A program made the translations under genes and the position numbers. Under the pieces are notes generated by a model, which saw only the letters and a program-made list of their open reading frames with translations, was not told where the DNA came from and did not search any database. This document shows positions 8,799 through 12,624 of a DNA stretch of 47,757 bases, piece by piece. The stretch spans positions 1 to 47,757 of IMG/VR virus record IMGVR_UViG_3300021962_000181; one strand, given 5' to 3'. Position 1 is the stretch's first letter; every line of letters starts with the position of its first letter. Source of the stretch: a virus.

Positions 8799-10097
8799 AT
8801 GGCAAGTTCATGTAATAGTCTCAACGTTCAGACAATCAAAGTAAGTCAACTAGCTCCTCCTAGCCGAGACATCATCAATAACGATTTCTTTTTGATGATC
8901 GAAAGCGGATCGTCTCTTTATTCTAGAAGAGCAACATTTGGAGATTTACTTACTTACATCAATACAGCTGACGGAAGTTACACAGGTAGTTTTACTGGTA
9001 GTTTTAAAGGAAACTTCACATCTGGAAAAGTTACTGGAAGTTTTCTTGGTAACCTCAAGGGTAATGTAACTGGAACCGCAAGTTGGGCCAATAGTGCAAG
9101 TATTGCAAAAACTGCTTCATATGTTTCAGGTTATCCAAGTGGCGCTGGAACTACAGACTATACAACATATTGGGTTGACGGAGATACAGTTGGAGGTAAC
9201 GACTATATACGTAGATCGTCTACAATGACATCTCTAGGCGGTTCATGGCCTGCTACAACGGGTAGAAGTATTTTGATGAGACCACTATGTGTAGGAACGC
9301 AAGGTGCTCTTGGTAGTGGATTGATTGGTCAACACTTGATCCAATTTTCATCGTCTGCTACAGCTGGAGGATCAGTGTTTATGTATGACATGGGTCTACA
9401 AAACTCAAATAACTACATAAGAACAGGCGCAAACTTTGCAATTTTCTATTCGGGTTCGTTTGATGCTGGTGCTTATTCTGGTGCTGGAATCGATGCAATT
9501 TGGAGACCAGATACTGCGACTAAGACTGGTAGATATGGATTTGTAAGTTTTGGTGTAAGACAACGTTTGGTTGGTGTAGGTCATTTCCCAGCATCGTCAG
9601 GTGTTAATGCACAGTTACACGTTCATTTAAGTGGATCGTATGGATGGCCAGCATTTTCATATTCGCCTGGGTATGCTACGTTTAATCCTAATGAAAATGT
9701 ATTCTTGGTAACATCTGGCAGTTCTTATACCAAGTTGTTGAGAGTGAGTGGTAGTGGTCAGATGGATGTTCGTGGAGATATCGTTGCATATTCTACATTC
9801 GCAACATCAGATGCACGTCTTAAGGAGGACGTTGCTCCTATTGAAGATGCTTACACAAAACTATCATCATTGAATCCAGTGTCATTCGTCTGGTCACATA
9901 CTGATCAAGCTGATTTTGGTTTGATCGCTCAAGAAGTTGAAGAAATTTTCCCAGAGTTTGTCAAAGATAACATGGATGGTTATAAGACCGTTAAATATAC
10001 ATCATTCATTCCTCTATTGATCAAGACAATTCAAGAACAACAACAACTTATTGAAAGTTTACAAGACAGAGTAGCTACATTAGAAGAGGATCGATAA
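8799..10097 (+). CDS. Tail fibre with C-terminal peptidase S74 chaperone domain
   Basis: This 432-residue fibre protein has three parts. An N-terminal attachment region (about 1-55) is followed by GSFTGSFKG/VTGSFLGN collagen-like beta repeats (about 60-100) and a beta-rich middle. The C-terminus from residue 337 is an intramolecular chaperone of the peptidase S74 family: TSDARLKEDV with the Ser337/Lys342 dyad, then FGLIAQEVEEIFPEFV, YTSFIPLLIKTIQEQQ and a final coiled coil. In this family the domain trimerises the fibre and cleaves itself off just before the Ser. It lies between two other fibre genes and is closely followed (3 nt) by the next. Confidence 0.88.
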   Translation: MASSCNSLNVQTIKVSQLAPPSRDIINNDFFLMIESGSSLYSRRATFGDLLTYINTADGSYTGSFTGSFKGNFTSGKVTGSFLGNLKGNVTGTASWANSASIAKTASYVSGYPSGAGTTDYTTYWVDGDTVGGNDYIRRSSTMTSLGGSWPATTGRSILMRPLCVGTQGALGSGLIGQHLIQFSSSATAGGSVFMYDMGLQNSNNYIRTGANFAIFYSGSFDAGAYSGAGIDAIWRPDTATKTGRYGFVSFGVRQRLVGVGHFPASSGVNAQLHVHLSGSYGWPAFSYSPGYATFNPNENVFLVTSGSSYTKLLRVSGSGQMDVRGDIVAYSTFATSDARLKEDVAPIEDAYTKLSSLNPVSFVWSHTDQADFGLIAQEVEEIFPEFVKDNMDGYKTVKYTSFIPLLIKTIQEQQQLIESLQDRVATLEEDR

Positions 10098-10100
10098 AAT

Positions 10101-12026
10101 ATGTCTGCGATAACTAGGTTGAACAGAACAGGCCCAATCGCATTCTCCCAAATGACAATTGGGACACCATATGGTGCGATCAATAATCTGATTGATAACG
10201 TTGTTGGCACACCAGCATCTCAAAATATTTCGTTATCTGCATCGTTGGGATTGTTGATCAAAAATACAGGAGATCCAACAACTGACACAAAAGATTCGTT
10301 GGGTCTTGGTATTGGATTGGTAACACTCAATCAGTCAGCCGATGCAAGAATGAGTGAGTTTTATGGTGGTAATTATTTAAGTGCATCTATAACCAAGTCT
10401 GGTTCCGCAACGGGTGTATGGTTTACTGAGTTTTATCCAGATAGTGTAGTTCCAAATGCCAACTATTTGACAAGAGAAACTTCAAGTAGAGTTTATAGAT
10501 ACACGGTATATTCAAAGCCAAATCCTCCTGGTAGTTCAACATTTAGACTTCAATATTCATACATAAGACCAAACGATTCGGACGAATATATTACTCAACT
10601 TACCGATAATAATATTTACAAAATTGTTTTGAAGGACACGGTGTCTAATGCGTTTACATCTAGTCTTTTTACTGGATCGTGTGCTGCTGGGTCTACCACT
10701 AGTCAAACTACATTATTTGAATCTAATAATACTACAAATTTTCAAGCTACTGTAGATTCTACAAGATTTTTTATTAATGCAAGTAGCACAATAAGTTCTT
10801 TTCAACGAAGTGATTTGAATAGTATTTGTAGTTTTATAAATACACTGATCAATACACCAGAGACTTATGCTTTAAGCGGATACACAAGAACGATACCTGT
10901 CGTTGGTTCTTCAGGAACCAGAACATTTTCAGTGGAGGGATTCATAGCAAATGTTATAGGTGGTGGTCGATATTTTGCGGGATACATTTTAGCAACCGGT
11001 TGTCCAGGTTGGCCAAATCTATCATATGCAGTTTCAGATTCACGAACTACTGCTGGAAGTGCTATTTTTAACATTTCTACAATTTCCGATCCGACTGCTG
11101 CTGGTAGTTGCGGTTCTGCTCCTACACTTACTATATCAAACACAGCAGTAACTCAAAGATGTGGATTAACTGCTCAAGTCACTGCAACGCCAACTGGACC
11201 TACACAAGTAAGATTTAGTGGTAGTGCTATATTTACAAATCCAGTAACAAATGCGTATAATGCGTCATTTAATCTGAACGTTGCTGCTCCTCCATATACA
11301 TCAGACTGGATCAACACAGCCAACGGTATGTCACTGTATGCTGCTCCTGGTGGTATCGCACAACTTTTACCAACCTTTAGTCCAACCACGTTTACATTAG
11401 CTCCAGGTGCGACACAAGTTGTTAACTATGGATTTGGATTGGCATTTTATAATCAATCATATCAAAGTTCAAGCTTCTCAGGCAAAGCTACCTTCACAGT
11501 GTCTTTCCCAACTGCTCCAGGCGCACCATCTTATACTGGCACTGTAACTGCTACCATGGATAAATCAGTATGTTATGTCGCAGCACCTCCTCCAGCCGGT
11601 GGTGGTGGTGGATGTCCAGCAGCTTGGCAATTGATGGAAACTTTGGAGTGTGGATTTATACCAGCTAGAGAAATCGAAGTTGGTATGCACTTACGTGACT
11701 CTGAATCTGATAAGTGGAACAAGGTAACTGTAGCTCATATTGACAGAGCACCAATTTATAGAACTACTATTAATGGTAATGATTTTGATGTTGATGACAG
11801 TCATAAATGGTATGCTGGTAATGGAGTATGGAAGGTGGTTACAGATGTTAAAAAGGGAGATAAACTTGAAGGTATTGGTGGCATGGAGTTACATGTAGAT
11901 GATAACATCTTGTTGTTTGAAGAAGAAGATTTTATGCATTTAAATTGTGAAAATAGTAGATTTGTCATGGGAACATACGTAATTGGTCATAACTTCCCAG
12001 TCAAAAATGCAATCATAAAGAACTAA
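10101..12026 (+). CDS. Tail adhesin with C-terminal Hint/BIL (intein-like) domain
   Basis: This 641-residue protein has about 500 residues of Ser/Thr/Gly-rich beta structure, a PPAGGGGG linker, then a 127-residue Hint module from Cys505 to Asn631. Block A is visible as C505...METLECGFIPAREIEVGMHL, block B as VDDSHKWYAGNG (His568), then VKKGDKL, and the end reads YVIGHN with His630-Asn631. The following residue is Phe, not Cys/Ser/Thr, so ordinary protein splicing is not expected; N-terminal or C-terminal self-cleavage, as in bacterial intein-like domains, would be. Only nine residues follow the Asn. Its start is 3 nt after the S74 fibre gene, with AAGAGG before it. Confidence 0.75.
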   Translation: MSAITRLNRTGPIAFSQMTIGTPYGAINNLIDNVVGTPASQNISLSASLGLLIKNTGDPTTDTKDSLGLGIGLVTLNQSADARMSEFYGGNYLSASITKSGSATGVWFTEFYPDSVVPNANYLTRETSSRVYRYTVYSKPNPPGSSTFRLQYSYIRPNDSDEYITQLTDNNIYKIVLKDTVSNAFTSSLFTGSCAAGSTTSQTTLFESNNTTNFQATVDSTRFFINASSTISSFQRSDLNSICSFINTLINTPETYALSGYTRTIPVVGSSGTRTFSVEGFIANVIGGGRYFAGYILATGCPGWPNLSYAVSDSRTTAGSAIFNISTISDPTAAGSCGSAPTLTISNTAVTQRCGLTAQVTATPTGPTQVRFSGSAIFTNPVTNAYNASFNLNVAAPPYTSDWINTANGMSLYAAPGGIAQLLPTFSPTTFTLAPGATQVVNYGFGLAFYNQSYQSSSFSGKATFTVSFPTAPGAPSYTGTVTATMDKSVCYVAAPPPAGGGGGCPAAWQLMETLECGFIPAREIEVGMHLRDSESDKWNKVTVAHIDRAPIYRTTINGNDFDVDDSHKWYAGNGVWKVVTDVKKGDKLEGIGGMELHVDDNILLFEEEDFMHLNCENSRFVMGTYVIGHNFPVKNAIIKN

Positions 12027-12144: not shown

Positions 12145-12624
12145 ATGAGTATTGTTAGATATAAAGTGCCTGCATTGCGTCCTACTGTTAAGGACGATTT
12201 CGTAACCCCATTCGATAAGTTATTCGATGAGGTTTTCACAAATACCTTCCCAGAACTTACTAAGGATTTTGGAGTTGGGTTTTTCGAAAAACAAAGTTAT
12301 CCCCGTGTAGATGTAATTGATTATTCTGATCGGGTTGAAATTGTTGCGGAAATTCCAGGCCTTGAAAAGGAGGAAGTTTCTGTTGATGTTGAGGAGAATT
12401 TACTGATTATCAGTGGACAAAAGTCCAAGACAATTAGTGAGGACGACAAGAAGACTTACATTCGTAAAGAATTGAAACACAGTAGCTTTAAACGTGCTTT
12501 TGTGTTGAGTGACCTATTTGATAAGGACAATCCGTCTGCTAAGTTTGAAAATGGACTTTTGACGGTCACTGTTAAGAAGGTTAAACCTACTCCACCAACA
12601 AGTAAGCGAGTAAAAATTGTGTAA
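12145..12624 (+). CDS. hsp20: Small heat-shock protein, Hsp20/alpha-crystallin family
   Basis: This is a 159-residue ATP-independent holdase chaperone that would keep unfolding proteins soluble in the cytoplasm. After a variable N-terminus, the alpha-crystallin domain (about 47-145) runs from YPRVDVIDYSDRVEIVAEIPG through EEVSVDVEENLLIISGQ to the conserved KFENGLLTVTVKK. A C-terminal VKIV gives the I/V-x-I/V anchor that links dimers into oligomers. Hsp20 is a regular gene of cyanophage-type T4-like viruses. It has its own sigma70-like promoter, a structured leader, a good SD (AAAGGA) and a terminator, so it is a single-gene unit, probably early. Confidence 0.94.
   Translation: MSIVRYKVPALRPTVKDDFVTPFDKLFDEVFTNTFPELTKDFGVGFFEKQSYPRVDVIDYSDRVEIVAEIPGLEKEEVSVDVEENLLIISGQKSKTISEDDKKTYIRKELKHSSFKRAFVLSDLFDKDNPSAKFENGLLTVTVKKVKPTPPTSKRVKIV

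Follow-up and report, generated by a model that had tools for sequence, protein, structure and literature searches.

Two decades after their discovery, BIL domains have, to our knowledge, no settled biological role. Hog and type B BIL domains carry out N-terminal cleavage only, for which the His-Asn pair at the C-terminal end is dispensable, and in these domains the pair has decayed. Type A BIL domains form a thioester at their N-terminal end and are cut at their C-terminal end by Asn cyclization; the freed alpha-amine can then attack the thioester so that the flanks are joined, with cleavage as the dominant outcome (PMC4031507). The proteins that carry type A domains are variable and not conserved (PMC4031507, PMC7765530). 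The Tetrahymena BUBL domain BIL2 (TthBIL2; PDB 6Y75, 6TMM) stands in a eukaryotic polyprotein, whose ubiquitin-like domains it separates, and its locus yields an activated ubiquitin-like protein (PMC9200820). Hint domains have been reported in named phages as terminase inteins (PMC3556154, PMC3853055, PMC5259590).

Here we describe a divergent Hint domain at the C-terminus of a phage protein encoded in a virus record of 47,757 nucleotides, IMG/VR IMGVR_UViG_3300021962_000181, which was analyzed over its full length (the window). The ORF at 10101..12026 (+) is open throughout and encodes P0001, a carrier protein of 641 amino acids in total with its Hint domain. It starts 3 bases past the stop of the gene for a 432-amino-acid tail fiber protein (8799..10097, +) that ends in a Peptidase_S74 (endosialidase chaperone) domain (PF13884, E 9.6e-16; PHROG tail fiber matches). 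The Peptidase_S74 intramolecular chaperone, a C-terminal self-processing domain of tail fibers, is like the P0001 Hint domain in position only, their fold and chemistry being unrelated. On the 3' side lies a gene for an Hsp20-like small heat shock protein (12145..12624, +; phrog_432, E 4.2e-22), and this gene also follows in contigs L001, L002, L006, and L013. Since the record also encodes baseplate wedge, PhoH, and SbcC-like genes, the source virus is likely a T4-like myovirus.

The carrier part, residues 1-499 (10101..11597, +), is beta-rich and belongs to no family known from PHROG and Pfam searches. Full-length P0001 had no match at E<=0.01 in PHROGs, no credible match in Pfam, and no tblastn match among named phages, and the AF2 model of its first ~500 residues (pLDDT 56) is too poor for naming a fold. 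The N-terminal part is probably a tail fiber-module protein because the S74-domain tail fiber gene adjoins it. An earlier, sequence-only reading had placed the Hint domain at the C-terminus of a phage adhesin; the C-terminal position stands, and the adhesin label comes from gene position, with no family match in residues 1-500.

The carrier is followed by a linker of five glycines, Gly500-Gly504 (11598..11612, +), and then by the 127-residue Hint domain of the type A BIL kind, Cys505-Asn631 (11613..11993, +), assigned from its fold, homology, and conserved residues. Cys505 (11613..11615, +) is the predicted nucleophile of the N-S acyl shift in block A, and His630-Asn631 (11988..11993, +) the predicted Asn cyclization site in block G. 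His568 lies within a block-B-like DVDDSHKW stretch (Asp565-Asp566-Ser567-His568; 11793..11804, +), and Arg620 (11958..11960, +) stands where block F has its conserved His. After Asn631 there remains a tail of 10 residues, FPVKNAIIKN (11994..12023, +), with Phe632 at +1 and Lys640 as the penultimate residue. This layout, from the glycine run and Cys505 through His568 to His630-Asn631-Phe632 and the nine residues beyond, is as the sequence-only reading had described it, and its block B-like claim held for the place of His568. The motif itself reads Asp-x-Ser-His, not Thr-x-x-His (typical of the Hint superfamily though not universal in it), with Asp565 in place of Thr and the His kept, and block F has Arg.

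The AF2 model of the domain, for which the input was an alignment of 11 sequences only, has a pLDDT of 83.2 and a pTM of 0.79 and shows the Hint horseshoe beta fold with two long strands, one per half. Values of pLDDT <50 occur in the first residues and in the C-terminal tail after Asn631, and there is no other notable disorder. The best Foldseek match in the PDB is Tetrahymena BIL2 (6Y75, E 4e-8, TM 0.78 by query), and the gp41-1 intein (6QAZ), with a TM of 0.84 by target, and the Clostridium BIL domain (2LWY) are also among the best; the best 50 matches are inteins and BIL domains, and among viral structure models the matches include proteins annotated 'Hint'. Thus, the horseshoe that the sequence-only reading had staked its Hint/BIL identification on was obtained (pLDDT 83, Foldseek E 4e-8), and a large family of phage Hint domains, to which the domain is homologous, points the same way. 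The identification leans on fold comparison because searches with sequence against Pfam, PHROGs, and the PDB gave nothing or a match out of register: a phmmer search of PDB chains with the single domain found none, and the 11-sequence domain profile reached 2LWY but out of register. In the profile search against Hint models, which the earlier reading had called for, Pfam PT-HINT (PF07591) was matched by 6 of 11 relatives, below the gathering cut-off (best E 3.6e-4), and HMMs of the wider phage set discussed below match P0001 in register (E 4e-4 to 8e-4). P0001 itself has no match to PT-HINT and no credible match to any other Pfam family. Matches of the Hint profile to ribosomal L1 and metallo-beta-lactamase, and those of the domain in NCBIfam, were at chance level and were discarded. 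On this sequence and model evidence, the C-terminal 127 residues of P0001 form a genuine, divergent Hint domain of the type A BIL kind.

The P0001 domain shares with type A BIL domains (Clostridium thermocellum BIL, PDB 2LWY; Magnetospirillum BIL) the Hint fold, Cys1, the block B His, the C-terminal His-Asn, and the lack of a nucleophilic residue at +1, which is Phe632 here. It differs from them in standing at the extreme C-terminus of a phage tail-module protein after a Gly linker, and in its block B Asp-x-Ser-His and block F Arg. Tetrahymena BUBL BIL2, the best structural match, is ~19% identical to it and, unlike it, lies between ubiquitin-like domains. Type B BIL domains are without an intein-like block G, whereas P0001 has the block G His-Asn, and the Hedgehog Hog domain has a sterol-recognition region after Hint, where P0001 has only 10 residues after Asn631. 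Class 1 inteins (gp41-1, Npu DnaB) have the fold and blocks A, B, and G in common with P0001, but P0001 has no Cys, Ser, or Thr at +1 and its Hint domain is not inserted in a conserved site. The statement in the earlier reading that normal splicing makes no sense here is right only if class 1 splicing is meant; type A BIL domains can splice through the freed alpha-amine (PMC4031507), and in P0001 such splicing would remove the Hint domain while the 10-residue tail stayed on the carrier.

In scans of viral contigs, we found the Hint domain of this kind (the window clade) on 20 other viral contigs, where it is attached to three unrelated carriers, of P0001 type, PA14-like, and tail fiber-like; none was found in cellular genomes. 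Seven contigs (L001-L005, L016/L017) have the same gene as the window, with carriers 73-74% and Hint domains 71-80% identical to P0001, and on the other contigs with a P0001-type carrier the carrier identity is 33-50%. The carrier in L025-L029 is unrelated to that of P0001; in L027-L029 it is PA14-like, with the PA14-like domain matched in L029. The L045 carrier has ASYALSGSF-like repeats and no family match; judging by these repeats, it seems to resemble tail fibers. Because the Hint domain stays 40-81% identical across these carriers, carrier and Hint domain evolve apart, with the Hint domain moving between carriers and always taking the C-terminal place. In 6 of 7 pairs the Hint domain is more strongly constrained than the carrier, its dN/dS being lower (0.07 vs 0.14 for window/L001; 0.11 vs 0.50 for window/L006), with synonymous sites near saturation in the wider pairs. 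No Hint-less homolog of the P0001 carrier was found; the domain is present in every carrier homolog found. These data bear on the idea that the domain is what remains of an ordinary intein, or else a selfish mini-intein by which the carrier is spliced through the class 1 mechanism. The Hint fold, the intein-like ends, and the mobility between carriers would suit it, but the clade lacks Cys, Ser, or Thr at +1 and an endonuclease insertion, and the domain is placed at the very C-terminus, not in a conserved active site, and occurs in every carrier homolog found, so that we regard this origin as very improbable.

A wider phage-tail family (L046-L202) was drawn by the DNA pattern Gly-Gly-Gly-Cys-Pro-Ala-x-Trp and then enlarged with an alignment; its members mostly read 'CPAPW...HTY...SHN(x)K' and comprise 69 distinct domains. 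Profiles of the window clade and this family align by hhalign with probabilities of 96.9% (E 2e-10) and 97.9% (E 4e-13), each E-value being that of one pairwise comparison. The two groups share the Gly-rich linker, tail-protein carriers, and, in many members, the Cys-Pro-Ala start; the wider family differs in having S/T-x-x-H in block B, mostly His in block F, and Lys at +1/+2. Matches in Lak phages were set aside as intein-like, since the one examined, L197 (MK250023.1, Prevotella phage Lak-B4), has Ser at +1; this short Hint domain lies in an unannotated region and is probably an intein.

We compared 85 non-identical domains, 15 from the window clade and 70 from outside it. In an IQ-TREE tree (130 columns) a long branch, supported at 100/100, separates the window clade from the rest. 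Cys1, the block B His, and the C-terminal His-Asn are present in 85 of 85 domains, Cys1 for instance in 15/15 and 70/70; Cys1 and His-Asn served to delimit the domains, so these two counts are partly built in, but both were also present in 59 of 59 domains of another set, part of which came from a pattern that required neither. At least Gly-Gly precedes Cys1 in all clade members. At the block B Thr position, Asp is found in 15/15 clade domains and Ser or Thr in 70/70 outside, and at the block F His position, Arg in 14/15 of the clade and His in 64/70 outside. It could be that these changes weaken or alter catalysis in the window clade, and one may guess that the Asp-Arg pair stands in for the Thr-His pair. 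They also give grounds for considering a fold that no longer reacts and that has been retained for a structural role as a cap, as a foldon, or for binding. We judge this unlikely, since a structural use alone would not need the invariant Cys1, His568, His630, and Asn631.

The residues for both end reactions are retained, and conservation does not set which products form. Judging from these residues and the model, we consider it probable that the domain is a type A BIL autoprocessing domain of a phage tail-associated protein that reacts at both ends and frees its carrier. The Gly504-Cys505 bond would be converted to a thioester with the aid of His568, and Asn631, aided by His630, would cyclize and cut the chain before Phe632. 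Together, the two reactions would release the Hint domain and leave a mature carrier that ends in the glycine linker, with its C-terminus a free acid if the thioester is hydrolyzed, or with the tail re-attached if the freed amine of the 10-residue tail attacks the thioester, as in BIL-type splicing. The Hint domain would then be, in effect, a module that tail proteins carry at the C-terminus and can shed. We infer that both ends react because His-Asn is kept, whereas Hog and type B BIL domains have lost it; the pair would be dispensable if only N-terminal cleavage mattered, yet it is kept with just 5-15 residues after Asn in 41 of the 70 relatives outside the clade. It may also be that the domain stays bound and uncleaved on its carrier.

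The residues after Asn may bear on the fate of the thioester. At +1 the window clade has F, A, G, or V and no Cys, Ser, or Thr, and the wider family (Lak-phage L197 left out) has no Cys or Ser and 3 Thr. With L197 again left out, all 69 wider-family domains have a Lys at +1 or +2. The window clade is without this Lys; its tails of 6 to 15 residues are variable in sequence, and in 14 of 14 distinct tails the penultimate residue of the protein is Lys, as against 8 of 109 background ORFs (7%), a contrast that a naive probability would overstate since the members are related. These lysines raise the question of acyl transfer, in which the attack on the Cys505 thioester would come not from the alpha-amine of the tail but from some other amine, for example that of a Lys of the C-terminal tail, of a different virion protein, or of the host surface, leaving the carrier covalently linked by an isopeptide or amide bond. 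The nearest fold, that of TthBIL2 from a locus yielding an activated ubiquitin-like protein (PMC9200820), and the five loci whose tail-tip cluster has a pair of Hint proteins would fit such a step. Against this, the Lys may instead be there for structure or for recognition of the tail, and in the window clade it is far in sequence from the active site, in a tail modeled as disordered. We hold acyl transfer to be rather improbable. An extension of it, that the C-terminal Hint domain of phages is a built-in ligase which passes the Cys1 thioester to the Lys after Asn, the penultimate Lys, or a partner, and so knits the tail tip together or fixes it to a host surface, seems to us likewise improbable. 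The +1/+2 Lys of the wider family is also found after internal Hint domains with 100-1000 residues downstream.

Carriers in the wider family include lambda-type tail assembly protein I (TAPI; phrog_32, E 4e-54), a J-related tail fiber (phrog_5616, E 4e-93), J-type tip proteins, a tape measure protein (phrog_167, E 1e-12), and fibers and others. Iyer et al. (PMC1779556) noted that TAPI is ubiquitin-like, that it has a linker rich in glycine, and that the neighboring JAB peptidase probably processes it. Because the Hint domain sits after the TAPI linker noted by these authors, its placement would fit a processing role. In five loci (L184, L198-L201) a tail gene cluster encodes two Hint-bearing proteins. 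L184 pairs a J-like protein with a second tail protein; in the myxobacterial prophages L198-L201 (Pyxidicoccus, Myxococcus, or Corallococcus), the two are TAPI-Hint and a J C-terminal part with its own Hint domain, the order in Pyxidicoccus (L198) being JAB+NlpC protein, TAPI-Hint, J core, and J C-terminal part-Hint (pair: L198:3526-10051).

Some members of the wider family have other arrangements. In L141:2501-4867 and L164:1-912, a second Cys-led Hint-like module stands in tandem after the first SHN-K end, seemingly without the block B His in either and preceded by a Gly run in L141. In the very large phage proteins of L149, L162, and L165 (~2400 amino acids in L149 and L165), 940-980 residues come after an internal Hint domain, which could divide the chain into two large parts.

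The Hint/BIL kind is already known. We found no description of BIL domains in phage tail proteins in the literature, mainly the freely accessible part, nor of the Lys and the block B and block F changes, which is weak evidence that these features are novel. The window clade, with its changed block B and block F, would be a natural variant for studying Hint catalysis, and the myxobacterial prophages L198-L201 with two Hint-bearing tail-tip proteins lie in named bacterial genomes. The presence of Hint domains with intact catalytic residues on the C-termini of TAPI, J, and fiber proteins would give the role of BIL domains a concrete setting, namely tail maturation, and if ligation proved true, it would mean a protein-joining step built into the virus particle.
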